From Planococcus shixiaomingii (GTDB taxonomy: Bacteria > Bacillota > Bacilli > Bacillales_A > Planococcaceae), in contig NZ_CP129236.1 of assembly GCF_030413615.1 (NCBI RefSeq), positions 3,890,001 through 3,954,000 of the forward strand: 64,000 nucleotides of DNA, in the 5' to 3' direction. Shown here in pieces: positions 26,165 through 62,649 of this stretch. Position 1 is the first letter of the stretch. Every line of letters begins with the position of its first letter. The notes under the pieces are model-generated. The model searched no databases. It worked only from the letters and a program-made list of their open reading frames with translations, and had not been told where the DNA came from. Position numbers and translations under genes: made by a program.

Positions 26165-26196
26165 GGAAGCTCTGATAGTGTGGTACCTTAGCTTCC
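26165..26196 (+). terminator. Hairpin after the S9 peptidase gene
   Basis: Arms GGAAGCT and AGCTTCC, 14 nt after the stop codon, without a good T tract. It resembles, at roughly 60%, the hairpin at 26609-26645 on the far side of the repeat element and could be a decayed duplicate. Confidence 0.5.
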
Positions 26197-26199
26197 GAG

Positions 26200-26607
26200 T
26201 TGTCGAGAAATAGCTCTCGACAATTTTTCCATTTCGCTCCAGGCGGACGCTTTCCGCGGGCTCGCGCCGAGCCGCTTCGTCGCTTCGCGACTGCAGGGTC
26301 TCGGCTGTCTCGCTGTCCCGCAGGAAAGACATTGGCCGATGGCAGTGAGGCCAAGTATTTGCGACGAAGCAAGCGCAGCGATGCAGGAGCAGAGGGTTTT
26401 CCGCCGCCTTCCGCTTCACTCAATGCCTGTTTTTTCTTTAGAATATTTTTCAAATAAGAAACTGCCAGGAAAACTAACCTTTCTGTTGTTTCTTTCTTGT
26501 TTGCAAGATATGGAGCAAAACAATGTAGACTCCCGCGGGATAGCGCAGCTGTTTTGCAGAATATCGGCTATCCATATGAAAGAATAATTTTTTATTTTTC
26601 TCAACAA
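26200..26607. repeat. GC-rich intergenic element, copy A (~408 bp)
   Basis: Non-coding element with near-perfect 11-bp terminal inverted repeats (TTGTCGAGAAA at 26200-26210; TTTCTCAACAA at 26597-26607, one mismatch). The left module begins AGGCGGACGCTTTCCGCGGG; the right module carries GAGCAAAACA and GCTGTTTTGC in inverse orientation. Copies B, C and (rearranged) D lie at 31785, 36816 and ~62095. It sits between two convergent genes. Open frames here are not real genes. Confidence 0.85.
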
Positions 26608-26608
26608 A

Positions 26609-26650
26609 AAGGAAAGCCGTGACAGCGTACTGTCATGGCTTTCCTTTTTA
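26609..26650 (-). terminator. Terminator of the HAD phosphatase gene
   Basis: AAAGGAAAGCC pairs with GGCTTTCCTTT and an inner GTGACAG/CTGTCAT stem; A and T tracts on both sides make it bidirectional. It lies directly right of repeat copy A. Confidence 0.88.
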
Positions 26651-26662
26651 TTCTATATGTTG

Positions 26663-27529
26663 TTATCGTACTTTCACAGCCAAGACATTCGATTTCAAAT
26701 AATGATAAACGCCGTCTTCATCACAGGTGAATTCCGTTACGTCGTCTACGATTGCTTTAATATGGTCCGCTGCATTTTTCATGGCTACTGCGTGGCTGAC
26801 ATACCCGAACATCTTCACGTCGTTGTCGCTGTCACCGATAGCCAGCGTCTCGCAGCCTTTTAGCCCAAAGTGCTCCAGCATCTGGTCGATGCCGCTTGCT
26901 TTGTTGACGTTGGCGACCATGACCTCTGCGTTGTGCGGAGAAGAAGGCGTCATCGTGAAGTCCATCTCTTTTTGCAGCTGCTTGAGCTCTATTTTCCAGT
27001 TGTTGATGTGTTCTCTCGATCTTGCGAAAAAATAAAACTTTGAAAAATGCGTTGCCGTTATCGCTTCTTTCCACGCAATTTCTTCTTTGATCGCTTTTTT
27101 GCGTGAAATCCATTCGTTGATTTCTACGCCTTCGGGCTGTGGATCCCGGATTTCAGCTTCCACGTATTCCCGGTCTTCTTCCAGCACCAGACGCGGTTCG
27201 CCATATGGAAACAGTTCGTAATATACTTTGTTTTTCCGTGCGCGCTCAATAATGGTATCCACCAGTTCACGCGACAGCGAATGCTCAAACACCACTTCTT
27301 TTCCAATATAGCCCGACATGCCGTTGGCTGTGATGATGCCATCCACTGCAAAGCCCTCAGGCAGCATGTCCCCTAATTCCACTGCGGATCTTCCGGTTGC
27401 AATAAAAACAAAGATTCCTTCGCTTCGCAACTCATCTATGATGGTTTTCGTATTCATGCTTACTTTATTGTGGTGGTTCAAAATAGTGCCGTCCATGTCC
27501 AAGAAAATAGCTTTCGGTTGTATTGCCAA
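26663..27529 (-). CDS. Cof-type HAD-IIB phosphatase
   Basis: 288 residues of the HAD superfamily, Cof subfamily with a C2 cap. Motif I is D11-x-D13-G-T, motif II FIATGRS, and the C-terminal motifs are KASGIDQML and AIGDSDNDVKMF. These enzymes dephosphorylate sugar phosphates or nucleotides/flavin precursors. The start is TTG at 27529, supported by AGGAGG seven bases upstream; no ATG fits that position. Ends at a strong terminator next to repeat copy A. Confidence 0.9.
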   Translation of the reverse strand: MAIQPKAIFLDMDGTILNHHNKVSMNTKTIIDELRSEGIFVFIATGRSAVELGDMLPEGFAVDGIITANGMSGYIGKEVVFEHSLSRELVDTIIERARKNKVYYELFPYGEPRLVLEEDREYVEAEIRDPQPEGVEINEWISRKKAIKEEIAWKEAITATHFSKFYFFARSREHINNWKIELKQLQKEMDFTMTPSSPHNAEVMVANVNKASGIDQMLEHFGLKGCETLAIGDSDNDVKMFGYVSHAVAMKNAADHIKAIVDDVTEFTCDEDGVYHYLKSNVLAVKVR

Positions 27530-27772
27530 TGCGTTTCCTCCTGTTTCTTCAAATAAAATGTATTAAGCTAGTATACGCTGTGCCATTTTCAAAATCAAAG
27601 GAAGCCCTCTTTTCAACTGAAAACCCTCTAATTAAGAATTTGATGAATTAAAACCCTATTTTCAATATAATGAAGGTTGAAGAAGTATACTTATAACATA
27701 TGCAATTAAATAATTGTCTGTTTACGCATGCCAGTCTGGTAAAGTATGGCCTGCTGGCGGATGGAGGATAAT

Positions 27773-28615
27773 ATGAAGCAGATATTGACCATAGAAAAAA
27801 TACTGAATAATAACGTTGTCATTGCTCTTCACGATACCTATAAAGAAGTGGTCATGATTGGCAACGGGCTCGGTTTCAATAGAAAAAAAGGCGATTCAAT
27901 CTCTTTCGATAAAGCAGATAAAACATTTTTATTGAAAGATGAAAAAGAAAAAGAGCAGTACGTTAACCTGCTCCCTCATATTGAAGAAAACCTGATTGGA
28001 TTTATTCATGAACTGCTCCTCTTTGTGGAAGAGCAAATGGGCAAAGAATTGAATGAACATATTCATGTGGCATTGACGGACCATCTTGCTTTTGCAATCA
28101 GCCGTGCCAAAAAGAATATGCAATTCTCCAATCCGTTTTTGTATGAAATTGAAGCTTTATATCCGAGAGAATACCAAGTGGCAAAAGGCGTCGTAAAAAA
28201 AGTGGAAGACCGGATGGACATTTCGTTTCCTGAAGGTGAAATCGGTTTTATCGCACTCCATATCCACAGTGCGGTGACCGACAAGTCCTTGCGCGACATC
28301 AACCGGTACAATCTCCTTATCTCAAAGCTTGTGGCCCTTATTGAAGAAAGCTTGTCCCTTCAACTGAAAAAAGATGACGTCGATTACCACCGGCTGATCC
28401 AGCATCTTCACCGGGCAATCGACCGCGCTCATCAAGGCCAGGCGCTTGGCGAGGAAAACAAGTTGGAAGAAGTGTTGAAAAAAGAATATCCCGTGTGCTA
28501 TAATCTTGCGTGGAAACTAATAAAAGTTATGCAGAACCAATTGAATAAGCCGGTTGATGAAGCTGAAGTGCTGTATTTAACGATTCATCTTCAACGCCTG
28601 CTGCATAAATCCTAA
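27773..28615 (+). CDS. glcT: GlcT-type transcription antiterminator of ptsG
   Basis: 280 residues of the BglG/LicT/GlcT family: an N-terminal RNA-binding CAT domain (MKQILTIEKILNNNVVIAL, EVVMIGNGLGFNRKKGD) and two PRD domains with the conserved His positions (ALTDHLAFAISR, ALHIHSA, LIQHLHRAIDR, LTIHLQRLL). Unphosphorylated GlcT binds the RAT element in the ptsG leader and blocks the terminator; PtsG phosphorylates it when no glucose is taken up. I chose the ATG at 27773, just behind GGAGG, over ATGs 12 and 27 bases upstream. ptsG follows immediately. Confidence 0.93.
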   Translation: MKQILTIEKILNNNVVIALHDTYKEVVMIGNGLGFNRKKGDSISFDKADKTFLLKDEKEKEQYVNLLPHIEENLIGFIHELLLFVEEQMGKELNEHIHVALTDHLAFAISRAKKNMQFSNPFLYEIEALYPREYQVAKGVVKKVEDRMDISFPEGEIGFIALHIHSAVTDKSLRDINRYNLLISKLVALIEESLSLQLKKDDVDYHRLIQHLHRAIDRAHQGQALGEENKLEEVLKKEYPVCYNLAWKLIKVMQNQLNKPVDEAEVLYLTIHLQRLLHKS

Positions 28616-28618
28616 ACT
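28590..28618 (+). promoter_or_regulatory. Candidate ptsG promoter overlapping the end of glcT
   Basis: TTCAAC (28590-28595), 17-bp spacer, TAAACT (28613-28618). The -10 includes the glcT stop codon. The predicted start point is near 28625, exactly where the RAT begins. Hexamers are imperfect, so this is a prediction. Confidence 0.5.
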
Positions 28619-28624
28619 AATCAT

Positions 28625-28735
28625 ACGTGTTACTGATTCGATCAGGCATGAGTATGAAAAGATAAACAGGTTAAATCTTAGGGGGACGTGTCCCCTTTTT
28701 TAACCATATCTTTTCTGCTCATGCCTTTTTATTTT
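28625..28735 (+). promoter_or_regulatory. ptsG leader: RAT antiterminator target and overlapping terminator
   Basis: 28625-28653 matches the GlcT-specific RAT as I remember it from B. subtilis ptsG (GTGTTACTGATTCGATCAGG core). Its 3' half (AGGCATGAG, 28644-28652) is also the left arm of a long terminator whose right arm CTCATGCCT (28718-28726) is followed by a T-rich tract. RAT and terminator are therefore mutually exclusive. Inside the terminator loop a second hairpin (GGGGACGTGTCCCC plus six T, 28682-28701) could act as an extra stop. Confidence 0.92.
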
Positions 28736-28796
28736 GAACAGCAGGATTCAATTTGGCCGCATCTTTTATTTTAATAAAATTAAGGAGGAATTTTTC

Positions 28797-30869
28797 ATGT
28801 CTACTAAATCTGCAACGTCGAGCAATTTGTTCGGCACCTTGCAAAAAGTCGGTAAAGCACTGATGCTTCCGGTCGCACTCTTGCCTGCAGCTGGTATTCT
28901 GCTTGCCTTCGGTACGAGCTTTGCACAAGAGTCATTCTTGGAAGCGGTGCCATTCTTCGGCGCTGACTGGATCCAAAAATTATTGTTTGTTATGGCGGAA
29001 GCCGGCGGCATCATATTCGATAACTTGCCGTTGCTATTCGCAGTCGGAGTAGCCATCGGGCTTGCCGGCGGAGACGGCGTAGCAGGTCTTGCAGCCATTA
29101 TCGGCTACTTGATCATGAACGTTACCATGAAGGCATTCGGCAACATTACAGCCGAGATGACGACCGATCCCAAATATGCGGAAGTGCTGGGTATTCCTAC
29201 GCTTCAAACAGGCGTTTTCGGCGGTATCATCGTCGGAGTATTAGCCGCCTTTATGTACAATAAATTCTTTAACATCAAATTGCCGCAATTTCTTGGATTC
29301 TTTGCCGGCAAGCGTTTTGTTCCAATCGTTACGGCTTTCTCAGCAGTATTTCTTGGAATTGTCATGTTCCTTGTATGGCCATTTGCTCAAAACGGCTTGA
29401 ATGCGCTATCGCACTTCATGCTTGAAACCAACCGGACGTTAGCCGCTTTCGTATTCGGTACGATTGAACGCGGATTAATCCCGTTCGGCTTGCACCATAT
29501 CTTTTATTCGCCATTCTGGTTTGAATTCGGATCTTACACGAATGCTGCTGGAGAAATCATTCGCGGAGACCAGCGAATCTTCTTCTCTCAATTGCAAGAC
29601 GGCGTCGATTTTACAGCTGGTACATTTATGGCCGGCAAGTTCCCGTTCATGATGTTCGGCCTTCCGGCTGCTGCACTTGCCATCTATCACTGCGCACGCC
29701 CCGAGAAGAAAAAAATCGTCGGCGGAATCATGGCATCAGGTGCTTTGACTTCATTCTTAACAGGTATTACAGAACCACTTGAATTTTCATTCTTGTTTGT
29801 TGCACCAGTTCTTTTCGGTATCCATGCAGTTTTTGCAGGATTGTCGTTTATGACTATGCACCTTCTTGACGTTAAAATCGGTATGACTTTCTCGGGCGGA
29901 TTGATCGACTTCCTGCTCTTCGGCGTTATGCCTGGAAGAACCGACTGGTGGTGGGTCATCATCATTGGTGCTGTCTTCTCGGTTATTTACTATTTCGGTT
30001 TCCGCTTTGCCATCAAGAAGTTCAACTTGATGACTCCAGGCCGTGAAGAAGATACAGAAGAAGACGACGACGGCGAAGAAGTCGGCGATCTGCCATATGA
30101 AATTCTTGCGGCGATGGGCGGACAAGAAAACATCAAGAACTTGGATGCGTGCATTACCCGCCTTCGCGTCAGTGTAGAAGATAAAAACAATGTAGACAAA
30201 AACAGATTGAAGAAACTTGGCGCATCCGGCGTCATGGAAGTCGGAAACAACATCCAAGCAATCTTCGGACCAGTCTCTGACAGCTTGCGCGGTCAAATGC
30301 AAGATATCATCAACGGCAAGAGACCACGTCCACAAGCAGCTGCTCCAAAAGTTGCCGAAGGGACAATCGAAAATGCTGCAGACAAAACAGCAACACTAGA
30401 ATTTGTTAGCCCGATGACGGGCGAAATCCTGCCAATTACTGAAGTTCCTGACCAAGTATTCGCAGGCAAAATGATCGGCGACGGATTTGCCATCCGCCCT
30501 ACTGACGGCAAAGTCGTATCACCCGTCAACGGTAAAGTCGTTACGGTTTTCCCGACAAAACATGCGATCGGCATTGCGGCAGACAACGGCACTGAAGTTC
30601 TGATCCATATCGGAATTGATACGGTCAACTTGAAAGGCGAAGGATTTACGTCGAGAATTGAACAAGGCGACCTTGTCGAACAAGGCCAACTTCTAATGGA
30701 AGTGGATTTGGACTATGTCGAAAAGAACGCAGCATCAATCGTTACACCTATTGTCTTCACTAATTTGACTGAAGGCCAGGCTGTAGAAATTAAAACATCC
30801 GGTATTGTGAACGCTAAAGATAAAAATATTATCAAAATCACAGAAGGACAGCCTGCAACCACTAACTAA
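28797..30869 (+). CDS. ptsG: PTS glucose transporter EIICBA
   Basis: 690 residues: EIIC membrane domain (~1-410, about 10 helices), EIIB (~430-510) with phospho-Cys C452 ([11 protein letters not shown]), and EIIA (~545-690) with phospho-His H604 (LIHIGIDTV) and the partner His in TKHAIGI. It imports and phosphorylates glucose using PEP through HPr. The ATG at 28797 follows AAGGAGG; an upstream ATG would read through the leader terminator. The glcT gene, RAT and terminator upstream give substrate-dependent antitermination. Complete and normal length for an EIICBA glucose protein. Confidence 0.95.
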
Positions 30870-30879
30870 GTTTCACATC

Positions 30880-30930
30880 AAAAGCCCGGCTAGCAGCGAT
30901 TTGTTATCGTTTGCGTCCGGGCTTTTCATT
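30880..30930 (+). terminator. ptsG terminator
   Basis: 10-bp arms AAAAGCCCGG (30880-30889) and CCGGGCTTTT (30917-30926), with an imperfect inner stem. Confidence 0.85.
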
Positions 30931-30958
30931 ATTTAAAAGAGAAATTGGAGTGGGATAA

Positions 30959-31750
30959 ATGAAGTTATTAACGTTGAATTGCCATTCCTGGCATGAAGAA
31001 AACCAGCTCGAAAAAATCAGTCATCTAGCGGAAGCGATCAAAGAACAGGCCTATGACGTGATTGCCTTGCAGGAGGTCAATCAATCGATTGGCGAACCAT
31101 TGATTGATAAGAACATTAAAAAAGATAATTATGCAGTGGTCTTGCTGCACCAGCTAAAAGAAATCGGTGTAGAAGATTACGCGCTCGTATGGAATTTTTC
31201 CCACTTCATCTATGGAAAATTCGAAGAAGGTTTGGCTATTTTAACAAAACATCCCATACTGGAGGAACATTCTTTCTTCGTCAGCAAAGAATCCGATCCA
31301 GATACTTGGAAAACCCGGAAAATCGTTGGGACAAAAATTGATTGGAATGGCCGGCCAATCTCCTTCTACTCCTGCCATACCGGATGGTGGCATGACGCGG
31401 AAGAACCTTTCAAATACCAAGCGGATGTCCTCTTTGAGAATTTAAACAAGGAAGAAGTGTTCTTTCTATTAGGCGATTTCAACAACAACGCTTCTCTTGC
31501 AGGAGAAGGCTATGAATACTTGATGAACAAAGGGCTTTATGACAGCTACTCTCTCGCCGAAGAAAAAGACGAAGGCATTACCGTCAAAGGAAAAATTACG
31601 GGCTGGAACAACAACAAAGAAGACTTGCGCATCGATTTAATCTTGATGAGCGAGCCGTTTCCGGTTGTTTCTTCAAAAGTCATCTTCAACAACGAAAACA
31701 AGCCCGTCGTTTCCGATCATTTCGGAGTCGAAGTGGAAGTGAAAATATGA
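30959..31750 (+). CDS. Endonuclease/exonuclease/phosphatase (EEP) family protein
   Basis: 263 residues of the DNase I-like EEP superfamily. Visible motifs are LTLNCHSW, the metal ligand Glu in ALQEVNQ, SCHTGWW, LLGDFNNN (catalytic Asp/Asn) and the C-terminal SDHFGVEVEV (catalytic Asp-His). No signal peptide. Family members cleave phosphodiesters in DNA, sphingomyelin or inositol phosphates, and the target here is not known. RBS TTGGAGTGG. It lies between ptsG and repeat copy B; its original terminator seems to have been disturbed by the repeat. Confidence 0.85.
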   Translation: MKLLTLNCHSWHEENQLEKISHLAEAIKEQAYDVIALQEVNQSIGEPLIDKNIKKDNYAVVLLHQLKEIGVEDYALVWNFSHFIYGKFEEGLAILTKHPILEEHSFFVSKESDPDTWKTRKIVGTKIDWNGRPISFYSCHTGWWHDAEEPFKYQADVLFENLNKEEVFFLLGDFNNNASLAGEGYEYLMNKGLYDSYSLAEEKDEGITVKGKITGWNNNKEDLRIDLILMSEPFPVVSSKVIFNNENKPVVSDHFGVEVEVKI

Positions 31751-31754
31751 AAGC

Positions 31755-31773
31755 AGCCCTCTTCTAGATGAAG
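31755..31773. repeat. Flanking direct repeat left of copy B
   Basis: Nineteen bases nearly identical (one inserted C) to 32139-32158 on the right of the element. The right copy is the core of a functional terminator hairpin; the left copy has only a degraded stem. Confidence 0.75.
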
Positions 31774-31784
31774 TGGCTTAAAGG

Positions 31785-32132
31785 TTATCTAGAAAAAGCT
31801 TTCGCCAATTTTTTCATTTCGCTCCAGGCGGACGCTTTCCGCGGGCTCGCGCCGAGCCGCTTCGTCGCTTCGCGACTGCAGGGTCTCGACTGTCTCGCTG
31901 TCCCGCCGGAGTCGCCGCCTTCCGCTTCACTCAATCGCTGTTATTCCTTGCAATCGTTTTTTTGCTAAGTAAGTTCTGGAAAACTGACCTCTCTGACGTT
32001 TCTTTTTAATACACAAGATATGGAGCAAAACAGCGGAGACTCCCGCGGTGCAAGCCCGCAGGAAAGCGGAGCTGTTTTGTGGAGTATCGACTATTCCAAT
32101 ATGAGAGAATAATTTTGTATCTTTCTCAACAA
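31785..32132. repeat. GC-rich intergenic element, copy B (~348 bp)
   Basis: Same family as copy A: about 95 bp from 31814 onward are almost identical to copy A from 26230, then the right module with GAGCAAAACAGC and GCTGTTTTGT. The right end TTTCTCAACAA (32122-32132) is intact; the left end (TTATCTAGAAA) has decayed. It lies between convergent genes. Compared with A and C it lacks most of the central segment. Confidence 0.85.
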
Positions 32133-32173
32133 AAAGTAAGCCCCTCTTCTAGATGAAGAAGGGCTTACTTTTT
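32133..32173 (-). terminator. Terminator of the Gfo/Idh oxidoreductase gene
   Basis: AAAGTAAGCCC pairs with GGGCTTACTTT, with A/T tracts on both sides. Its core (32139-32158) is repeated on the other side of element B. Confidence 0.87.
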
Positions 32174-32188
32174 CAATTAAATTCCGCC

Positions 32189-33127
32189 TTACTCAAGCAG
32201 TTTTGCCACTTTTCGGGAAATCTCATGCGTATTGATGGCGGATTCCAGCTGATTGTTGTTCACGCACTTTATGAATTCCTCGACTTCGTAATACATCGTG
32301 TCAAATTCATGCGGAACCGAAAGGTCTTCCGTTGAGCCGTCTCTGTATTTGATGACGATATGCTTCGGATCGCTGATTCGGTCGATTTCGATAATACCGT
32401 TCTCACCTTGGATTTCACTTGGCATGTAAGAATCCGATATCTTCGAATACATGATCACTGCTTCTACCCCATTGTAATTCAGGATCATGCTGCCTTGGCC
32501 TTCTGCACCCGTCGATAACAAATAACTATTTCTCAGGACTGAATCCGGTTCTCCTACTAAATGGACGATAGGTGCGATGCAGTAAACTCCTAAATCCATT
32601 TTGGCACCATTCCCCAGTTCAGGCTTAAAGGCATTTTCAATAATACCTTCTTTGTATTTATCGTAGCGGGAAGAATACTGGTTGTAATGGAAAACAAAAC
32701 GGCGCAGCTGGCCGATTTTATCCAAGTTCTTTCTCATGTTAAGGAACGACGGCGTCACCGTTGACTTCATCGCTTCCATATACGTCACTTTGTATTTCTG
32801 AGAAGCCTCAATTACCCGGTCCATTTCCGCAGCGGAAGTAACTGCAGGCTTTTCGCAAAGAACGTGAATACCATGCTCCATCGCAAGCACACTTTGTTCC
32901 ACGTGGAACGAATTTGGTGACGCGATATAGACAGCATCAATCGTTCCGCTTTGGAACATTTCCACCATATCGGTGTAGACATGTTCCACCCCGTACTGAT
33001 CCGCAAACTCCTTGCCCTTTTCTGTTGTTCTGGAGTAAACAGCTCCTATACTGAATTCCGGATGCGCTTTTGCTGCTTTAATGAGCCGATCGGTGATCCA
33101 GTTCGTTCCGATAATTCCAAATCTCAT
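32189..33127 (-). CDS. Gfo/Idh/MocA family oxidoreductase
   Basis: 312 residues. The N-terminal Rossmann fold opens with MRFGIIGTNWITDRLIKAA, followed by AVYSR, the dinucleotide/substrate motif VLCEKPAVTSAAEMD, and a C-terminal dimerisation/substrate domain (DLGVYCIAPIVHLVG, LNYNG). NAD(P)-dependent dehydrogenases of this class oxidise sugars, inositols or dihydrodiols; substrate unknown. The ATG lacks an outstanding RBS. Transcription may start at its own promoter between 33128 and 33255, downstream of the small RNA terminator. Confidence 0.87.
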   Translation of the reverse strand: MRFGIIGTNWITDRLIKAAKAHPEFSIGAVYSRTTEKGKEFADQYGVEHVYTDMVEMFQSGTIDAVYIASPNSFHVEQSVLAMEHGIHVLCEKPAVTSAAEMDRVIEASQKYKVTYMEAMKSTVTPSFLNMRKNLDKIGQLRRFVFHYNQYSSRYDKYKEGIIENAFKPELGNGAKMDLGVYCIAPIVHLVGEPDSVLRNSYLLSTGAEGQGSMILNYNGVEAVIMYSKISDSYMPSEIQGENGIIEIDRISDPKHIVIKYRDGSTEDLSVPHEFDTMYYEVEEFIKCVNNNQLESAINTHEISRKVAKLLE

Positions 33128-33254
33128 GTTGTTCCCTCTTTTCTAATTCAACTATGTATTTGCTTTCTATGAACAGCTGCAACCATTTTCTTTAGTGGAT
33201 GCATATTTTTTATATAAACAATTCTAACACACGCTTAGGGTTTGATTGGACAAA

Positions 33255-33376
33255 TAGAAAAAGCACCTCGCCCGAAGGCAAGGTGCTTATCGATAGTTTG
33301 CGGCGTTCCAAGCCACGCTCCACAACGTGTTCCTAAAAGGAATGCTTGTCCGTCTTACGCAAACGAGCTCATCGCG
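33255..33376 (-). ncRNA. Candidate ~120-nt structured small RNA
   Basis: On the minus strand a near-consensus promoter, -35 TTGACA (plus 33406-33411), exactly 17 bp, -10 TATTGT (plus 33383-33388), is followed by an RNA ending in a strong terminator (plus 33261-33288, then T-rich). No credible reading frame. The RNA folds well: P1 pairs 33358-33364 with 33296-33302, P2 pairs 33344-33348 with 33309-33313, and inside P2 two hairpins (33330-33342 and 33314-33329) abut without linkers. I do not recognise the family. A leader/riboswitch for the downstream oxidoreductase (start 130 nt away) is the alternative. Confidence 0.72.
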
Positions 33377-33382
33377 TCTTTA

Positions 33383-33411
33383 ACAATAGATCATATTAGA
33401 AAAAGTGTCAA
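33383..33411 (-). promoter_or_regulatory. Sigma-A promoter of the candidate small RNA
   Basis: TTGACA, 17-bp spacer, TATTGT on the minus strand; the start point is expected near 33376. It is among the strongest promoters seen in this window. Confidence 0.8.
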
Positions 33412-33452
33412 TGCATTTCGCTTGGGAAGCGTGGCGAAGAACAGTATTCCTA

Positions 33453-35009: not shown

Positions 35010-35108
35010 TCATAGCTGATTACCTCAGAGAAATGGCTTTCTTTTATTGTTATCTACGCTCGAATCCCAAAGAACATGTTTTCTCTTTCGCGAAAAATCC
35101 GCAATAGT

Positions 35109-35145
35109 AAAGGGCATTGTTCTCGCACAGAGAACAATGCCCTTT
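35109..35145. terminator. Hairpin downstream of frlR
   Basis: 16-bp perfect stem (35109-35124 with 35130-35145) and a 5-nt loop, 32 nt after the frlR stop on the minus strand. The T tract is modest. Confidence 0.75.
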
Positions 35146-36784: not shown

Positions 36785-36809
36785 ATGGGCACTACAAAGT
36801 AGCGCCCAT
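36785..36809. repeat. Flanking 25-bp direct repeat left of copy C
   Basis: Identical base for base to 37255-37279 on the other side of the element. It is itself a hairpin (ATGGGC.CTACTTTGTAG.GCCCAT on the minus strand). Confidence 0.9.
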
Positions 36810-36815
36810 TATAGG

Positions 36816-37248
36816 TTGTCGAGAAATTCTTGATAGACTTATTATTCATGGCGCTTCAGGCGGACACTTTCCGCAGGGTCTCGCCTGTCTCGCTTTCCCG
36901 CAGGAGTTGCCGCCTTCCGCTGTCATCAATATCCTTTTATTTCTTAGTAAATTTTTTAAATAAGTAAGTATTGAAAAACCTAACCTCTCTGCTGTTTCTT
37001 TCCGTTTCGCAAGATATGGAGCAAACCAGCGGAGACTCCCGCGGGACAGCGAAGTGCCGAAATCCACTCGGGCGCTAAGGCCGAGTTAGTTCGGCGCAAG
37101 CCCGCAGGAAAGACATTGGCCAATGGTAGTGAGGCCAAGTCTTTGCGACGAAGCGCACAGCGCTGCAGGAGCACATGTTTTTAGCGCAGCTGTTTTGCGG
37201 AATATCGACTACATCAATATAAAAGAACAATTAGTATTTTTCTCAACA
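36816..37248. repeat. GC-rich intergenic element, copy C (~433 bp)
   Basis: Left end TTGTCGAGAAA (36816-36826), right end TTTCTCAACAC (37238-37248). The left module (AGGCGGACACTTTCCGCAGG) is shorter than in A and B. The right module is the fullest: GAGCAAACCAGCGGAGACTC, then ~75 bp (37050-37110) shared with copy D, then GCAGCTGTTTTGC. It lies between frlB and frlD, two genes in the same direction. Confidence 0.87.
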
Positions 37249-37254
37249 CACTGG

Positions 37255-37279
37255 ATGGGCACTACAAAGTAGCGCCCAT
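37255..37279 (-). terminator. Hairpin after frlB; right-hand 25-bp direct repeat of copy C
   Basis: Seven nucleotides after the frlB stop. A GC-rich stem of about 10 bp with a short loop; T tract weak. Exact duplicate at 36785-36809. Confidence 0.75.
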
Positions 37280-54023: not shown

Positions 54024-54065
54024 TCCACAACATCCTTCCCTTATCCAAACTTGTCTAGCAATCTT

Positions 54066-54806: not shown

Positions 54807-55525
54807 GAAACAATCCCTCTTTCATATCTGCGAGCCCGCTTCTCGATTGTCACCAGCAATCGCTCCACTGCAATACAAAGAATCCAATAAACAATCGATA
54901 CCGCAATATACACTTCAAAAAATGCCAACCCACGGGAACCGAGTATTTTGGCTTCTCCCATAATATCTACAACCCCAATAATGAAAACTAGAGAAGTATC
55001 CTTGATCGTACTGATAAACATATTCCCAAGGTTAGGTATGGCTACTGCCAAAGCCTGCGGGAAAATGATTTTAAGCATCATTTGAGCAGGCGTCATGCCT
55101 ATCGATTTAGCAGCTTCAAATTGCCCGCGGTCAACCGACTCAATGGCGGACCTGATCGTCTCGGACAAATAGGCGCCCAGATTAACCGAAAAAGCCAATA
55201 ATGCATATACTTCAGGGGGGATGCTATTAACATCCGCCGATTGAAGCCAGCCATATTGAATCTGCAAATAGTAAATAATTTTAGGTATTCCATAAAACAC
55301 AAGATAGATCTGCACCAATAAAGGAGTTCCTCTGATAAAAGATACGTAGATAGATGAAATCACTCTTAATACCGGAACTCTATATATCTTGATGAGTGCA
55401 GTAACCACTCCAATAAATAAACTCAAAATCAACGAGCCTACAGCTATCCCTATCGTAATGGGTAAGCGTGAAATGATAGCCGGAAAGCTTTCTATTAAAA
55501 AGTTTATGTCCAGTAAATTTTCCAT
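54803..55525 (-). CDS. Polar amino acid ABC transporter, permease
   Basis: 240 residues, about five membrane helices (~18-40, 55-75, 95-115, 180-210). It carries the HEQRTA-type permease loop around [44 protein letters not shown], which contacts the ATPase. It starts 21 nt after the binding-protein gene and overlaps the ATPase gene. One permease only, so a homodimer is expected. Confidence 0.92.
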
Positions 55526-55546
55526 AATCTCTTCCCTTCCCTAAAC

Positions 55547-56362
55547 CTATTCAGGGATATATTCTCCGCCAGTCCATTTCTTGGAAAGCTCCGCTAAAGT
55601 GCCGTCCTGCTTAAGTTCTTTCAGAATCGGATCAATCAACACCTTCAACTTTTCGCCCTGTTCCCCTTTTTTCATTACAATTCCCATATCATCATTAACC
55701 AAAGGCTGTCCCACAATCTCTACACCTAGGTCATTCTTTTCTAAAACCGCATTAACCATGATCGGATCATTTACATAAGCATCTAAACGGCCATTTTGGA
55801 CATCTTGCAAAATTTCTGAAGGATTTCCACTTTCGCTGTACTTCAAATCAATCGGCTGCGCTGCTTTTTTGTTGTATTCCTCTAAAAGCAATGTGTAAGA
55901 ATCTCCTGCCAGGGCCCCGACCTTCTTACCTTCTAAATCTTCAATTGTTTGGATATCTTCTCTTCCTGTCTTTACAGCGATAACCGTTTGAGAGGCAAAA
56001 TAAGATTCATCGGTGAACAAGTACTTTTCTTGGCGTTCTGGTGTTTTTGCTACTTGATCCGCTATTGCCTGAATTTTATTTGACTCCAATGCAAGAAACA
56101 TACTGTCCCAAGGAACGGCGACAAACTCGAATGTATAACCGTCCAGCTGTTCATCAATCGCCTTTACCACTTCAACGTCATAGCCCGTCAGTTCATTGTT
56201 ATCGTCCGCAAAGGCAAAAGGAGGATAATCATTTTGTGTTCCTACTAAAATCACTTGGTCGCCAGTTGCACTTGCTGCTTCCTTTGACGAACATCCGCTC
56301 AAAGCCACACCGACGATCAATAATAAAAATATGGATACGGACAAATAATAGTTTCTCTTCAT
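55547..56362 (-). CDS. Amino acid ABC transporter substrate-binding lipoprotein
   Basis: 271 residues. The lipoprotein signal ends in the lipobox LSGC (anchoring Cys near residue 24). The mature part is a family 3 solute-binding protein: NDYPPFAFADDNNELTGYDVEVVKAIDEQL, VPWDSMFLALESNKIQAIADQVAKTPERQEKYLF, GKKVGALAGDSY. First gene of the operon controlled by the SAM riboswitch; it delivers the amino acid to the permease. Confidence 0.92.
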   Translation of the reverse strand: MKRNYYLSVSIFLLLIVGVALSGCSSKEAASATGDQVILVGTQNDYPPFAFADDNNELTGYDVEVVKAIDEQLDGYTFEFVAVPWDSMFLALESNKIQAIADQVAKTPERQEKYLFTDESYFASQTVIAVKTGREDIQTIEDLEGKKVGALAGDSYTLLLEEYNKKAAQPIDLKYSESGNPSEILQDVQNGRLDAYVNDPIMVNAVLEKNDLGVEIVGQPLVNDDMGIVMKKGEQGEKLKVLIDPILKELKQDGTLAELSKKWTGGEYIPE

Positions 56363-56589
56363 GTTAAAACTCCTTTTTTATACAGAGAGTCGCAAGTCAA
56401 TCTAATGCAAAAAGCAATAGCCGATTAATCTTTTTGCTAAATGAACAACAGAAAAGCCCTGCGCTAATTACAACTATCGATGGCTGAATACAAAAACCTG
56501 CCAGGTGGATTCAAAGTTATTTATATTGTCGTAAATCTCCTTTCTCTCCAATTTGCAAAACAAAAACGCAGCATAATTTTCCTTTTGGA

Positions 56590-56733
56590 TACAAAAAAAC
56601 CTACTCCGATAGGAATAGGTTTTAATCTGATTCTTATCTCTCAGAGCACTTGCTCTGCAGGAATTAGCACCTCTCATTAAATGATGGTTGCTGGACGTCA
56701 TCGGGCCTGTCCCTCAGTCTCTCTTGATAAGTT
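56590..56733 (-). promoter_or_regulatory. SAM (S-box, SAM-I) riboswitch with terminator
   Basis: The minus strand carries the SAM-I core: P1 left arm CTTATCAAGAGAG, GACTGAGGGA, CCGATG, CAGCAACC, AGGTGCTAATTCC, and P1 right arm GAGATAAG. The aptamer spans plus 56633-56731. It is followed by a terminator stem (56597-56622) and seven T. High SAM should terminate transcription before the transporter and mmuM genes. Confidence 0.96.
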
Positions 56734-56756
56734 ATTTAATTTTCAACATATTAAAG

Positions 56757-56785
56757 ATAGTATTTTACATTCCCTCTTCTGTCAA
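56757..56785 (-). promoter_or_regulatory. Promoter of the SAM-riboswitch operon
   Basis: TTGACA (plus 56780-56785), 17-bp spacer, TACTAT (plus 56757-56762), about 25 nt before the aptamer. Confidence 0.8.
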
Positions 56786-56835
56786 ATGAATTTTTAATCT
56801 ATTTCGAATTTACTTAGATATTTTTTAATGAAAAA

Positions 56836-56864
56836 TTGACAATAATCCAAATCTTACATACCAT
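56836..56864 (+). promoter_or_regulatory. Promoter of the FAD oxidase gene
   Basis: TTGACA (56836-56841), 17-bp spacer, TACCAT (56859-56864). It is divergent from the riboswitch promoter ~50 bp away. Confidence 0.68.
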
Positions 56865-56909
56865 CTAGTAATACTTCAGATTATCGATTTTAACGAAGAG
56901 CGGAGCGAA

Positions 56910-58058
56910 ATGAATATGACAAAAGAAACTGAGTTTGACGTAGCAATAATTGGAGCCGGAACAATGGGAATGGCTGCCGGTGCCTTTTTGGCGCAACAAG
57001 GAGTAAAAACAGTGTTAATTGACGCCTTTGACCCGCCGCACGTTAAGGGAAGCCATCACGGGGATACCCGCTTAATCCGGCATGCGTATGGAGAAGGCCG
57101 ACAATACGTCACGCTAGTGAAGCGTGCCCAGCAATTATGGGAGGAACTTGAACAGCAGACTGGTTATAAAATCTTTGAAAAAACCGGAGTTCTTGGCTTC
57201 GGCCCGGAAGACTCCCCTTTTCTTCAGGAAACCATTGCAGCTGCTCAAAACTATGATCTTCCGTTAGAGATACTTAAGAGCCAGGAAATCAAAGAAAGAT
57301 GGCCTGGGTTTTCAGTACCTGATCATTTTATCGGATGCTTTGAAGCAGGATCGGGAATCATTTACAGCGAAAATGCGATAAAGGCCTTTAAAGAAACCGC
57401 GATTAAAAATGGAGCACATCTTGTAACAAATACACCCGTTCAGCACATCGATATGAATGACGAACACGGGGTGAAAATTTCGACCGAAAACACGACATTT
57501 TATGCTAAAAAGGTGATCATCACTGCAGGGGCATGGGCAGCAAAATTATTACCGGATTTAAACCTTCCTATTCAGCCCATCCGTAAAGCCGTTGGCTGGT
57601 TTGAAGCTCCTGCCGACCTCTATGACGCTGCTAATTTTCCATCCTTTTTTATAGAAGATCAGGATAAAAAGGCTTATGGTTTCCCCAGCTTGAATGGTTC
57701 CGGCCTTAAAATCGGAAAATCCGATGGCGGGCAAGCAATTGATCCGGACCTGCATACACAGAACTTTGGACTGTTTGAATCAGATGAAGGTGACTTGAGG
57801 CATCTGCTTGAAACTTATATTCCCGGCGCAAACGGGAAACTAAATCAAGGGAAAACTTGTTTGTATACAAATTCGAGTGATCACGATTTTATCGTTGATT
57901 ATCATCCTGAAAATAAAGACGTTATTTTTGCCTGCGGTTTTTCTGGTCATGGTTTCAAATTTGGAAGTGTCATGGGAGAAGTGTTGAGCCAAATGGCTTT
58001 AGACGGACAAAGTCAGTTTGATATTTCCATATTCTCTCTCAAGCGATTTGGTATGTAA
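56910..58058 (+). CDS. FAD-dependent N-methyl amino acid oxidase (SolA/sarcosine oxidase-like)
   Basis: 382 residues of the monomeric sarcosine oxidase / N-methyltryptophan oxidase family. FAD-binding VAIIGAGTMGMAAGAFLAQQG is at the N-terminus, followed by GSHHGDTRLIRHAYGEG. The covalent flavin Cys lies in FACGFSGHGFKFGS. It oxidatively demethylates N-methyl amino acids to yield formaldehyde and H2O2. A second ATG at 56916 is possible. Divergent from the methionine operon and transcribed alone up to a good hairpin. Confidence 0.9.
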   Translation: MNMTKETEFDVAIIGAGTMGMAAGAFLAQQGVKTVLIDAFDPPHVKGSHHGDTRLIRHAYGEGRQYVTLVKRAQQLWEELEQQTGYKIFEKTGVLGFGPEDSPFLQETIAAAQNYDLPLEILKSQEIKERWPGFSVPDHFIGCFEAGSGIIYSENAIKAFKETAIKNGAHLVTNTPVQHIDMNDEHGVKISTENTTFYAKKVIITAGAWAAKLLPDLNLPIQPIRKAVGWFEAPADLYDAANFPSFFIEDQDKKAYGFPSLNGSGLKIGKSDGGQAIDPDLHTQNFGLFESDEGDLRHLLETYIPGANGKLNQGKTCLYTNSSDHDFIVDYHPENKDVIFACGFSGHGFKFGSVMGEVLSQMALDGQSQFDISIFSLKRFGM

Positions 58059-58093
58059 TTGTAAAAAATCGAAGTCACATTCTAATTAATAGC

Positions 58094-58131
58094 AAAAAAA
58101 TCTCAGTTCAGTGGACTGAGATTTTTTTATT
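58094..58131 (+). terminator. Terminator of the FAD oxidase gene
   Basis: AAAATCTCAGT pairs with ACTGAGATTTT around a 7-nt loop, followed by seven T. Confidence 0.9.
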
Positions 58132-58202
58132 TATTTTCAAGTGCTCCTTGAACTATCGCACCCGATTGCAGAACTATTAATTCCTTCTGTTCATTTCCTC
58201 CG

Positions 58203-58550
58203 TTAAGAAAGTTCCTTTTTATATCGAACGGCTAGATATATTCCCGCAGCGATGAATACGAAAGCATATTTGAACAAGAAGAAAATTTGCCACATATACT
58301 CTTTCGGAAAAATCAAATCGAACAGAACTACTCCACACAACATTATGGAAGCACTGTTTAAATATATTTGATTTGTTCTTTCATCAGCTTTGCCTATCCT
58401 TTTTATATAAACATATAACAGAAGCACTCCTAATAAAACTAATACAAAACCGCTGCCAACAAGCATATTCCAATTACCAGATGTTTCTTCTGCCCAAATT
58501 TTCAAAGGATAAAAGATCGAATTTGATATTTCTGTGCTAGATTTCCACAT
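58203..58550 (-). CDS. Small membrane protein (DUF2178-like)
   Basis: 115 residues, three to four membrane helices (about 28-50, 65-82, 88-108) with the cytoplasmic loop IKRIGKADERTNQIYLNSA, which resembles DUF2178 proteins. It follows a small HTH gene by 1 nt. Such XRE regulator/DUF2178 pairs are common in Firmicutes; the regulator probably controls the pair, and the membrane protein's job is unknown. No signal peptide. Confidence 0.72.
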   Translation of the reverse strand: MWKSSTEISNSIFYPLKIWAEETSGNWNMLVGSGFVLVLLGVLLLYVYIKRIGKADERTNQIYLNSASIMLCGVVLFDLIFPKEYMWQIFFLFKYAFVFIAAGIYLAVRYKKELS

Positions 58551-58551
58551 T

Positions 58552-58779
58552 TTAATCGCTTCCTTTCACATAAGTAAAAATATCGTTAACATCTACATCA
58601 AAGAAATCAGCTATTCGAAACGCCAAAATTAGAGAAGGAGAGTAATTATTCTTCTCCATAACAAATATAGTTTGCTTAGACACACCGACAGCGTCAGCCA
58701 AATCTTTTTGCGTCATCCTTTTTAAAACTCTATACTCATACACTTTGTTTTCTACATAATCTTCAACTTCTTTTTTCAA
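58552..58779 (-). CDS. Small XRE-family (Cro/CI-type) transcriptional regulator
   Basis: About 75 residues, almost entirely a helix-turn-helix of the Cro/CI class: YEYRVLKRMTQKDLADAVGVSKQTIFVMEKNNYSPSLILAFRIADFFDVDVNDIF. I prefer the TTG at 58779, 8 nt after AGGGAGG; a GTG at 58788 overlaps that RBS. It is the first gene of a two-gene unit with the membrane protein. Similar small regulators (YvaO/Xre types) autorepress. Confidence 0.85.
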   Translation of the reverse strand: MKKEVEDYVENKVYEYRVLKRMTQKDLADAVGVSKQTIFVMEKNNYSPSLILAFRIADFFDVDVNDIFTYVKGSD

Positions 58780-58936
58780 TGTCAACACCTCCCTTTTTGG
58801 CTTTAATTACACATTAAATTATTTCTTTATAAAAGTAAAGTAAACTTATACTAAATAAATAAAAAGTTATACTATAACATTAAGTAAGAGAACCTAAATT
58901 TCTTTTATTTAAGAAGAAAATGATGTTGCACCAACA

Positions 58937-58976
58937 AAAAAAGACCACCGAATCAACATACAATTCGGTGATCTTT
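58937..58976 (-). terminator. Terminator downstream of the DUF4317 gene
   Basis: AAAGACCACCGAAT pairs with ATTCGGTGATCTTT (one wobble), and seven T follow on the minus strand. Confidence 0.87.
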
Positions 58977-59089
58977 TAACATTACAATTTTAATGCTTGT
59001 GATAGATAGGCAGCTGAATCCATCATTCAGAAGGCGATTTGTTTTTCCCTTTTCAACTAGCTGACTGAAAGGTCTTCCAACTCTCCCGC

Positions 59090-60280
59090 CTACTCCAACA
59101 ACTCTTCCTCTATCAGCTTGAATCCTTCAATCATCGTGTCTTCTTCCACTTCGATCAAGATGCAGCGTCTGCCGTTGTAATTGACTTGTTTGACGTATCG
59201 TAAGTCTTGGGGGCTGATTTTAATTTCCGCGACTTTTGTGCTGATTTTGATGGACTTCGATGCGTAGCTTGGTACAACATGGCTCGCTTTCATTTCATAG
59301 GTTTTGTCTTCAACCACCTGTTGAAAGGCTCTCTCCACTTTTTCCATACTCACGTCTTTTACACCGCTCGCCTTCAGCACACGTACAACCTCTACCGTGT
59401 CTAAAGTTGGCGCTTCTTCGTCATCTTCACTTTCTTTGTCCACCACTAACATATGATTGATTTCATCATATACACCGGCAAGGGTTCTCGAATTCACTTC
59501 TTCTCCGATTACAGCTTTGACAATCTCTTCGAATACGGCTTTATCTTCCTCAGCAGTCATGATTTCTTGGCCGTTCAGCACATTCTCGATAAATTGGAAA
59601 TCCGGTTTATTCGCTTTGCTTGCCGCATAAACGATGTGATTGATGTCTGCCGCATTGTCCGTAAAGCTAGGGAACAGAAATCCTCCGATTGGAGAAGCCA
59701 ATTTAATAACGGGATCAACCAGCACATTCGACTTGAATTCTTTCTCTATAAAATCAAACACCAGTGAACTTTTTGGCAGTTCGGTTTGATTCATGCTGCT
59801 AAGGATAAATGGAGTGTTGTACACTTCATCCCTCATGTCTATTTCCGTTTCATCGGCCTTGCGTTTTGTCGTTTTAAAATAATTTCCGCGAATGAACGTG
59901 ATGACCATGTCTTTTTCATAAGGTCTTTCTTCAACCATCTTCAAGGCGATGCGCTGCATATTTTCTTTCCAATCAGCTGTATCATCTGTCTCTAGTCCTT
60001 CATACAGCAACCGCTGCGTATGGTCCGCTTGTCCTTCTTCTTGAGGCTGGAACTTCACCTCAAACAGCTTCTCATCCAGCTTCCCGCCTAATACCTTTTT
60101 AAAGTTGTTAAGGAACAGTTCTTGCTGTTCGCGGTCCAATAAAGAAAATGAGCGGCTCTCCTCATGAAAGATCTCACTGGTTTCCCCTTTGATGTAAACA
60201 TTATAAATGTCAGCGATTTTCAGCAAATCGGTATCCAGCTTAAATCGTTTTCGAATATCTGCTATATCATTCTTATTCAT
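59090..60280 (-). CDS. DUF4317 family protein
   Basis: 396 residues, soluble, acidic. It opens with MNKNDIADIRKRFKLDTDLLKIADIYNVYIKG, as I recall of DUF4317, and shows FLLSSMNQTELPKSSLVFDF, KLASPIGGFLFPSFTDNAADINHIVYA and a Glu-rich C-terminal part. No catalytic motif is evident. The ATG at 60280 fits the family start; a TTG 12 bases upstream abuts GGGAG. Function unknown. Monocistronic. Confidence 0.8.
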   Translation of the reverse strand: MNKNDIADIRKRFKLDTDLLKIADIYNVYIKGETSEIFHEESRSFSLLDREQQELFLNNFKKVLGGKLDEKLFEVKFQPQEEGQADHTQRLLYEGLETDDTADWKENMQRIALKMVEERPYEKDMVITFIRGNYFKTTKRKADETEIDMRDEVYNTPFILSSMNQTELPKSSLVFDFIEKEFKSNVLVDPVIKLASPIGGFLFPSFTDNAADINHIVYAASKANKPDFQFIENVLNGQEIMTAEEDKAVFEEIVKAVIGEEVNSRTLAGVYDEINHMLVVDKESEDDEEAPTLDTVEVVRVLKASGVKDVSMEKVERAFQQVVEDKTYEMKASHVVPSYASKSIKISTKVAEIKISPQDLRYVKQVNYNGRRCILIEVEEDTMIEGFKLIEEELLE

Positions 60281-60325
60281 CTTTAATTCCAACTCCCTAG
60301 CTAGTTAAGATCCTTGTTGTGTACA

Positions 60326-60373
60326 AAAAAAGAGCATCCAAAGCGAGTGTTCAGCTTTTGGCGCTCCTTTATT
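60326..60373 (-). terminator. Terminator of the ring-cleaving dioxygenase gene
   Basis: AGAGCATCCAAAGC pairs imperfectly with GCTTTTGGCGCTCCT and is followed by seven T on the minus strand. Confidence 0.78.
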
Positions 60374-60433
60374 ATAACAATAATTCTGACGGAGAAAGGA
60401 ATGCTTCGGCACAGAGAAGTCGAATCCCTTTTA

Positions 60434-61384
60434 CTAACGCTTGATTTGGTTTTCGATATAGCTGCGGCGGCCTTCTAAAAAATCCGGCAGAAACAATGGA
60501 ATGGCATCATAGTCTGCCGTTGCCATTGCTGGTTTTACAAAGTTCGTCTGCTCCGTGGCTAATTCAATCAGCAAATTATTCGGCTCACGGTAATACAAAG
60601 ATTCGAAGAAATCGCGTTGTTTTATACCTGAATACACGAAGTTGGTATCTAAAATCATTTTCTCCACTTCGTACAAATAGCTTCGGTCTTTGGCATTCAG
60701 TGCAATATGGTGAACTGAACCAATCCCTTGCTTTTCAATATCACGAATCCGATCTTCGATTAGGTGAAGCTGCTGCCCAAACAAGGCATCTTCTCCTCCC
60801 AATACGGTTACTTGGTGATGATTGTGTTCGTATGTCTCTATTTTTTGCAGACCATGCATTTTCATAAAATTACGTGCAGAAGCATCTGCATACCGGACGC
60901 GGCATTGAAAAGAATCAATGCCCAAAATGGCATGCTCCAGTGGAATATCAGCTGACTGGTGCGGTGCATGCTCGGATGCCTTGCCTATTCGCAGAGGCGT
61001 CAACGCCAGCTGTATACCGTCACGGTCTTCAAAATGTAAATACTTCCTGCCTTGATAAGATTCAATTTCACAATTAAATACCTCATGGGCTTCGAAGCGG
61101 GCAAGCCAAAATTGGAGCGACGCTTCAGAAGGCACCGCAAAAACAGTACGTTCCAGACTATTGGTACCAAACTGTTTTTTTGGGGCGTTCTGCATTTCAA
61201 ACACACTAAATTCAGTTCCCGGACGCCCCGTTTTGTCGCCGAAGAATAAATGCAGCATTTCAATCTCATCTTGGTTTACTGTTTTTAATAGAAATTCTAA
61301 ACCGAGTAGCTTATGATAAAAATCAAAAGTAATATAACGGTCACGGTTGATGACTGAAATATGGTGAATAATCGGGCTTGTCAT
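60434..61384 (-). CDS. Ring-cleaving dioxygenase, VOC superfamily (MhqO/MhqA-like)
   Basis: 316 residues with two glyoxalase-like halves: HHISVINRDRYITFDFYHKLLGLEFLLKTVNQDE, LHLFFGDKTGRPGTEFSVFEM, and HHIALNAKDRS ... LLIELATEQTN with the metal-binding His/Glu. Such enzymes cleave or thiol-modify quinones and catechols; in B. subtilis the MhqR and YodB regulons include several. It is divergent from an MhqD-like hydrolase with only 35 bp between start codons. RBS AAAGGCGG. Confidence 0.87.
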   Translation of the reverse strand: MTSPIIHHISVINRDRYITFDFYHKLLGLEFLLKTVNQDEIEMLHLFFGDKTGRPGTEFSVFEMQNAPKKQFGTNSLERTVFAVPSEASLQFWLARFEAHEVFNCEIESYQGRKYLHFEDRDGIQLALTPLRIGKASEHAPHQSADIPLEHAILGIDSFQCRVRYADASARNFMKMHGLQKIETYEHNHHQVTVLGGEDALFGQQLHLIEDRIRDIEKQGIGSVHHIALNAKDRSYLYEVEKMILDTNFVYSGIKQRDFFESLYYREPNNLLIELATEQTNFVKPAMATADYDAIPLFLPDFLEGRRSYIENQIKR

Positions 61385-61419
61385 AGGGCACCGCCTTTAT
61401 TAGGATTGGAGAGTTAATT

Positions 61420-61998
61420 ATGGAACAGTTTAACATAGCTGCAAAATCCGATACATCATTTATTGTTTTTCACGGTACAGGCGGAAATGAATATTCCCTG
61501 CTGCAAGTTGTGGGCGACATCGACCCAACTGCTAATATTCGCGCCTATATCGGTGACGTTGGCACAGGAAAAGAACGCCGCTTTTTTGCGCCTTTGGAAA
61601 ATGGCCAAATTAATCGCACCGATCTTGATAAGCATGTTGAGTCGTTTTTAAAAGATTGGGCGCAGCAAAAACCTGAAGGCAAAGTTATCATGTTAGGCTA
61701 TTCAAATGGAGCCAATTTCTTGCTGGCCCTTCTGGAGAAAGAACCGAACCTTGCAGACGCGGTGATCCTTTTGCACCCATCCAATTTAAGTTATCATTTT
61801 TCCGGAACTTCAAACACAGCGCTTATTTTAACAGCTGGCGCACGCGATGTCGTTTCGATTCCGGGTGAATCCTTGAAATTATCCAAAACACTTGCTGCCC
61901 ATTTCCCCCAAACAACGTTCAAGCTATTCGATCACGGACATGACATCGTGGACGAAGAAGTAAGGTTTATTCGTTCCCAACTGGCCCAGCAAATATAA
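61420..61998 (+). CDS. MhqD-like phospholipase/carboxylesterase
   Basis: 192 residues of the small alpha/beta hydrolase family with FIVFHGTGGNEYSLL, nucleophile S95 in LGYSNGAN, TAGARDVVSIPGESL (Asp) and FDHGHDIVDEE (His). MhqD of B. subtilis belongs to the quinone-responsive MhqR regulon and is thought to act with MhqE/O-type dioxygenases on ring-cleavage products, which agrees with the divergent partner here. RBS TTGGAGAG. Its promoter must lie in the 35-bp gap or inside the dioxygenase gene. Confidence 0.87.
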   Translation: MEQFNIAAKSDTSFIVFHGTGGNEYSLLQVVGDIDPTANIRAYIGDVGTGKERRFFAPLENGQINRTDLDKHVESFLKDWAQQKPEGKVIMLGYSNGANFLLALLEKEPNLADAVILLHPSNLSYHFSGTSNTALILTAGARDVVSIPGESLKLSKTLAAHFPQTTFKLFDHGHDIVDEEVRFIRSQLAQQI

Positions 61999-62011
61999 CG
62001 ATTGAAATAAG

Positions 62012-62050
62012 AAAAAACCTTTAATCTATCAAACGGATTAAAGGTTTTTC
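62012..62050. terminator. Terminator of the MhqD-like gene; left flank of element D
   Basis: 14-bp stem AAAAACCTTTAATC with its complement around a 9-nt loop. The stem is repeated exactly at 62612-62648; only the loop differs. Thirty-three of the 37 positions agree. Confidence 0.92.
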
Positions 62051-62094
62051 AGACTATAGACAAAGTGTCGGATTGATGAATAAAGATGCATAAT

Positions 62095-62560
62095 CCAACC
62101 GGGCCGGCCACTTCGCTTTCCGTGGGCTCGGCTTCAGCCTCCTCGTCACTGAAAAGACCGTTGCTCCTGTCTCTGCATCGCTTCGCTAGCTTCGAGACAT
62201 GAAAAAGCGTTGCATCGCTGCGCTAGCTTCGTCGCAAAGACATGGCCTCAAGACTTTCGGACACTGTCTTGCCTGCGGGGTCTTCCGCTCGAGCTGTCCC
62301 ACAGGAGTCTGCGTGGCTAGCCCGGTTGGGCTTCTTTCTCAAATCAGGGTGACTGCCTTCATTCGAGTGTCTGGATGGGGTAATAGATGGCGCAAGGCAC
62401 CGAGTATTCGCTTCTTGCTTAGGCATCGGAGCGCAAGCCGGCGACTCCTGCGGGACAGCGAAGTGCCGAAATCCACTCGGGACGCAAGGACCGAGTTAGT
62501 TCGGCGCGAGCCCGCGGAAAGCGTACGGCTGAAGCGGAGGTGCCGGTACAGATCCGGTTA
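62095..62560. repeat. GC-rich intergenic element, copy D (diverged, ~470 bp core)
   Basis: Member of the A-C family by content: CGCTTTCCGTGGGCTCGGCT at the left, and at 62440-62530 the same ~75-bp block as copy C (GGGACAGCGAAGTGCCGAAA ...). It also holds internal duplicates (GCATCGCTTCGCTAGCTTCG at about 62175 and a near-copy at 62212). The TTGTCGAGAAA ends are not evident. Open reading frames here are artefacts of high GC. Confidence 0.78.
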
Positions 62561-62611
62561 AATGTGTCTATTTATTCCTAGAAAGTTAACTATTCTTTTG
62601 TATACAAGCTC

Positions 62612-62649
62612 AAAAACCTTTAATCCATTGAATGGATTAAAGGTTTTTT
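62612..62649 (-). terminator. Terminator of mqo; right flank of element D
   Basis: Same 14-bp stem as 62012-62050, with six T on either strand. It lies 24 nt after the mqo stop codon. Confidence 0.92.

Follow-up and report, generated by a model that had tools for sequence, protein, structure and literature searches.

The window, a stretch of 64,000 nucleotides from the genome of Planococcus shixiaomingii (contig NZ_CP129236.1), contains four short elements, each flanked on both sides by a copy of a terminator hairpin (Table 1). This arrangement had been claimed in a preliminary description of the DNA, and reading of the sequence at all four loci bears it out, as it does the agreement given there between the hairpin copies at the 36.8 kb locus (25 of 25 positions, L073) and at the 62 kb locus (33 of 37, L074). 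The hairpins differ between loci and are unrelated in sequence, which had also been noted; the idea that they are part of the element was rejected. The extents first given for the elements were too narrow, as the elements reach the hairpin copies, for example at the 62 kb locus. This element contains an open reading frame of 120 aa. Searched at the gathering cut-off, the whole window gave two Rfam matches only, a BsrF small RNA (33263-33375) and a SAM riboswitch (56631-56733), neither of which is within an element.

Table 1. Hairpin copies and elements at the four loci of the window
Feature	Position	Strand	Remarks
Left terminator hairpin copy, diverged	26163..26194	.	Aligns, like the right copy, to one 32-bp stretch of G030
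Group A MITE	26195..26607	.	End repeats GAGTTGTCGAGAAA (26197) and TTTCTCAACA (near 26600); ends as in other group A copies
Right terminator hairpin copy	26608..26639	.	From alignment to the G030 empty site
Left terminator hairpin copy	31753..31776	.	Flank score 17.5; single hairpin in G032 (L299)
Group A MITE	31777..32137	.	End repeats AGGTTATCTAGAAA (near 31782) and TTTCTCAACAA (near 32122)
Right terminator hairpin copy	32138..32161	.	Stem and T-tract run on to about 32175
Left terminator hairpin copy, 25 bp	36785..36809	.	Identical to right copy; single copy in G013 (L300) and G007 (L301)
Group A MITE	36810..37254	.	End repeats TAGGTTGTCGAGAAA and TTTCTCAACACACTG
Right terminator hairpin copy, 25 bp	37255..37279	.	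Identical to left copy; single in G013 and G007
Left terminator hairpin copy	62013..62049	.	33/37 identity to right copy
Group B MITE, 562 bp	62050..62611	.	End repeats CAGACTATAGACAAA and TTTGTATACAAGCTC; related copies in the same genome
Right terminator hairpin copy	62612..62648	.	33/37 identity to left copy

The four elements had been described as related to one another. This holds for their GC-rich internal modules, which are common to them, but their ends carry two kinds of repeat, group A at 26.2, 31.7 and 36.8 kb and group B at 62 kb. The internal modules (window 26200-26600, 31800-32100, 36850-37200 and 62100-62560) are found in varied orders and orientations, within and between both groups as well as in relatives. 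The repeats of one element (L065, 1418-1667) are of group A on one side and of group B on the other, and because of such mixed ends chimeric elements may move as well.

A comparison of flank identity and terminator prediction across copies had been proposed beforehand and was carried out on the P. shixiaomingii genome. Cores were found by searching with three of the four window elements, by which 74 stretches were retrieved, and 40 of the 116-138 first-look candidates were scored; the copy number of the element is consequently a lower bound. When left flanks were aligned to right flanks, 35 of 76 cores scored at least 17.5, with a control maximum of 18.5 among 1118 mismatched pairs. With wider flanks, 35 of 76 cores scored at least 18, versus one of 1502 mismatched left/right control pairs. 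By flank score the duplication is absent from 41 of the 76. The window loci themselves are not all strong in this respect. The flank pair at 31.7 kb, at the score given in Table 1, is slightly lower than the largest control score, and the pair at 26.2 kb (L071) scored 8.0, which by itself is no better than chance.

Folding energy is low in nearly all duplicated cores, being below the 5th percentile of random segments of the same length for the right copy in 35 of 35 and for the left copy in 33 of 35. An end-to-end palindrome test was passed by 14 of the 35 and failed by 21; we put the failures down to alignment ends being out of register, and folding energy was therefore used instead. Both neighbouring genes could be called with a simple ORF caller at 30 of the 35 sites, giving 20 convergent pairs, 10 co-directional pairs and no divergent ones. 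The observation of hairpin-flanked elements is confirmed as real and genome-wide.

Empty orthologous sites with one hairpin were found for three of the four window loci. At 36.8 kb, the relatives G007 and G013 have a single 25-bp hairpin, to which both copies from P. shixiaomingii align, and at 31.7 kb a single hairpin is found in G032. The match at 26.2 kb had been called weak. The flanks alone do stand at chance level, yet the locus is a duplication, because in each of two relatives (G030 and G032) the empty site has a single hairpin that is matched by both flanks. For the 62 kb locus no spanned empty site was found in five relatives, and its halves match G030 approximately 25 kb apart. In total, 14 loci, the 62 kb locus among them, were prepared by joining the flanks with one hairpin copy and were searched in the five relatives. 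For nine of the 14, one or more relatives gave a match that ran across the hairpin and differed in length by -6 to +27 bp; this was judged on 19 hand-picked candidate rows, and alignments were viewed for seven of the nine (not L045 and L064). At L025 and L055 the single hairpin in some relatives differs in sequence and occupies the same place. The orthologous sites examined that lack the element carry one hairpin, and two hairpins in tandem were seen at none of the aligned sites. In G030 (contig C31), the terminator of the 31.7 kb locus is occupied by a group B element, flanked on both sides by that genome's own form of the hairpin (L295, 1084-1746). Since the element at this terminator is of group A in P. 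shixiaomingii (31753-32161), the two insertions were independent. The proposal that a mobile element selects intrinsic terminators and duplicates its target is thus supported, both by the 35 of 76 duplicated cores and by the one-hairpin empty sites.

Two hairpins could also have come about without insertion, if tandem terminators had been present beforehand or if the later one had arisen by selection or gene conversion. In keeping with such an origin, stems are kept while loops drift; copy pairs in the P. shixiaomingii genome have mismatches in 29 of 864 stem and 33 of 145 loop positions, counted over 33 of the 35 pairs with L029 and L057 left out as irregular. It looks as if both hairpins stay useful, which is supportive only, the pairs having been chosen for similarity. 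Against this origin, a single hairpin is present at the empty sites that were viewed, and in most autonomous copies (below) the hairpins are identical and flush with the element. Tandem terminators preceding the insertion were rejected, and we consider an origin of the second hairpin other than by insertion very improbable.

Autonomous partners were sought by searching for the IS1182 DDE domain in 151 genomes of the bacterial family and inspecting the element ends. Insertion sequences were found whose ends, CAGACTGTAGACAAA and CAGATTGTCGACAAA, are those of group B. One such transposase was compared with named genomes and the best 80 of 386 relatives were kept, from Ureibacillus, Lysinibacillus, Sporosarcina, Bacillus, Neobacillus, Enterococcus avium and others; 68 of these best 80 loci were testable, allowing up to 5 mismatches in 15-bp terminal repeats. 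The autonomous members are about 1.5-1.8 kb long, with a single DDE transposase and terminal repeats matching those of the MITEs. A duplicated palindrome lies flush (within 5 nt) at both ends in 59 of the 68 testable copies, and the hairpin copies are identical in 54 of these 59. The 59 duplications are 59 different sequences of 19-34 bp (median 25); many of the copies come from few genomes, the target being distinct for each copy. End-to-end palindromes make up 55 of the 59 duplications versus 4 of 1180 controls, and a T- or A-tract lies outside the duplication in 52 of 59.

The transposase of L114, the one protein so compared, matched the NCBIfam model NF033551 (IS1182) at 478.8 bits against a cut-off of 270, and its 455-aa frame also gave PF13751, PF05598 and PF01609 above cut-off. 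The partners resemble IS1182 members in matching the family model, in having inverted repeats with a single transposase gene, and in their palindromic targets, which are on record for some members of the family. A sequence comparison of the transposase with the PDB gave no solved structure at E 0.01. For group A, broken IS1182 copies with group A ends were found in the same genus, two of which (L237 and L238) have identical hairpin duplications of 36 and 32 bp; a third relic with such ends (L236) had no duplication. In G025, short C-terminal pieces of transposase lie beside an element-like end repeat at contig ends (L248, L258 and L264).

Nine of the 68 autonomous copies lack a full duplication, in eight of which a hairpin directly abuts one end or both (10 of 400 for random single positions), L229 being the sole one without. 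L225 and L229, both from Enterococcus avium, have direct repeats of 6-7 bp instead of the full hairpin duplication, and our guess is that these reflect action of the enzyme on linear DNA. L176 and L197 have different hairpins on their two sides, a pattern expected from recombination between copies.

The P. shixiaomingii elements share the terminal repeats of these insertion sequences. Taking as a match any end within 4 mismatches of 15 to the insertion-sequence repeats, at least one end matched in 31 of 35 duplicated elements and both ends in 23 of 35, versus 40 of 4000 random segments. Between hairpin copies, elements of the window type in this genome measure 135-662 bp, which leaves no room for such a transposase. 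The window elements are, like MITEs, short and free of a transposase gene, and carry the terminal inverted repeats of an autonomous element; target duplication together with an empty orthologous site was found at three of the four window loci and nine of the 14 joined loci. No copy of the IS1182-type partner transposase was found in the P. shixiaomingii genome, and with its source gone the element copies there are probably fossils.

A target-primed (retro-) insertion had been offered as a copy mechanism, for which the length of the target duplications, exceeding that usual for transposons, would speak. This part of the preliminary description was not supported. The inverted repeats match those of autonomous IS1182 elements, which encode a DDE transposase and show duplications of the same kind, and this argues for movement of the MITEs by a DDE transposase. 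Target-primed insertion was rejected on these grounds, and its probability is next to nil. From the sequence comparisons, it is highly probable that groups A and B are gene-free MITEs moved in trans by a distinct branch of IS1182, by which a hairpin or cruciform would be recognised and the terminator split.

Hairpin and duplication share exactly the same centre in 54 of 56 flush autonomous copies (centring, like the U-tract counts below, covers 56 of the 59 duplicating copies), and its length therefore follows the hairpin. This suggests that the transposase recognises the shape of the target and not a fixed sequence. It would meet a hairpin or cruciform into which the palindrome of the terminator can fold, and the sequence itself would not be what is recognised. 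The two 3' ends of the element would then be joined at the 5' stem feet, one per strand, and gap filling would copy the stem-loop, so that the duplication would be as long as the hairpin. The most specific version, to which we give an even chance, is that the structure recognised by this DDE branch at terminators is an extruded cruciform (four-way junction), with joining at both 5' stem feet, so that DNA structure and not a fixed stagger sets the duplication; the split terminator would also send host transcription from both sides through the element, and transposase expression may profit from this.

Two other forms of the target have to be weighed. The target could be a linear duplex, each half-site of the palindrome being bound by one of two transposase subunits, whose spacing would determine a flexible stagger. 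The duplication starts with A in 53 of 59 and ends with T in 48 of 59, so a sequence preference at the joint is possible; the feet of terminators have an A/T bias anyway, however. A linear duplex would also have to accommodate 59 different sequences of varied length that are centred on the hairpin, as above, and a stagger across three helix turns would need an unusually flexible complex. We regard it as unlikely. It is similarly doubtful that the target is not a cruciform in resting duplex but a hairpin in single-stranded DNA, exposed either in the wake of a polymerase that pauses at the terminator or at the replication fork. The sites are indeed terminators, 20 of 30 of which lie between convergent genes and none between divergent ones, but a duplication made via both strands would require both stem feet.

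The hairpin copies on the two sides of the autonomous elements are not equivalent. At least 6 T in the 10 positions after the stem were found in none of 56 left and 40 of 56 right hairpin copies, and at least 6 A in the 10 positions before the stem in 46 of 56 left and 1 of 56 right copies. These counts imply that the gene-proximal hairpin is parted from its U-tract and that an intact terminator lies across the element. The earlier suggestion that a terminator is kept for each neighbour is accordingly half right for the autonomous copies; the complete terminator is there beyond the element, but the gene-proximal hairpin has lost its U-tract. With the terminator split in this way, transcription from either neighbour would be expected to cross the element and to stop only at the hairpin copy on its other side. 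In the P. shixiaomingii genome, over the same 33 pairs as above, a T-tract follows the stem in 12 of 32 left versus 27 of 33 right copies, and an A-tract precedes it in 28 of 32 left versus 14 of 33 right copies, a weaker split than in the autonomous copies.

Other IS1182 members of the same bacterial family, with ends like GGGGCTGTCC or GGGGTTGGGACAAAA, share the DDE domain, the inverted repeats and a length of about 1.6-2.0 kb. They differ in that direct duplication of a hairpin was found in none of 22 testable copies (of 28). Complementary outer flanks, expected where a hairpin has been replaced, were found at the level of 8 or more of 10 positions in only two of these 22, and hairpin replacement is thus not demonstrated for them. 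In a transposase tree, duplicating and non-duplicating copies are separated by a 100/100 branch; the tree consists of 30 hand-picked C-terminal segments, some partial, and its group A pair is flagged as a long branch.

Among described systems, IS1272 and TnSha1 of staphylococci are likewise of the IS1182 family and target hairpins, which are unrelated in sequence and several of which are confirmed terminators, according to the portions of the reports available (PMC4923244, PMC5678879). As described in those portions, the hairpin is removed on insertion of IS1272 (Wan et al. 2017, PMC5678879), and removal is also reported for TnSha1 (Furi et al. 2016, PMC4923244); the loss is whole or partial and leaves no target duplication, whereas here the whole hairpin is duplicated and 59 of 68 autonomous copies keep two hairpins. 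Duplication of the whole hairpin corresponds to pathway b of the model in Wan et al. 2017 (PMC5678879), a possibility given without an example in the text available. ISCaa15 (PMC3196728) and ISPse1 (PMC3281130), assigned to IS1182 by their authors, differ in having 4-bp direct repeats in the available descriptions. The BrickBuilt MITE of Porphyromonas gingivalis (PMC4596501) is also gene-free and intergenic, and for 10 of its 19 copies terminators or sites of polyadenylation are predicted nearby. Unlike the elements here, its duplications are short and variable, and the sections available describe no duplicated terminator (PMC4596501). In the available part of a published survey, IS1182 copies are over-represented between convergent genes (PMC9208149), which fits the terminator sites found here.

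Hairpin targeting by IS1182-family elements is known already. Within the open-access literature (subscription reviews and ISfinder being outside its scope), we recognised neither hairpin-duplicating IS1182 insertions nor the terminal repeats of these elements. The ISfinder family table is said to give direct repeats of 0-60 bp for IS1182, and long duplications in the family may therefore be on record already. A hairpin-doubling branch with gene-free derivatives in dozens of copies was not found described in the literature searched.

DDE transposons usually give short target duplications of a fixed length set by the protein. Here duplication length varies with the hairpin across dozens of separate insertions, so that structure-guided target choice can be tested directly. 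A natural contrast exists inside one transposase family, with one branch that loses the hairpin and another that doubles it. The findings suggest why gene-free repeats could accumulate where genes end, and by what route terminators become doubled and transcripts gain extended 3' ends.
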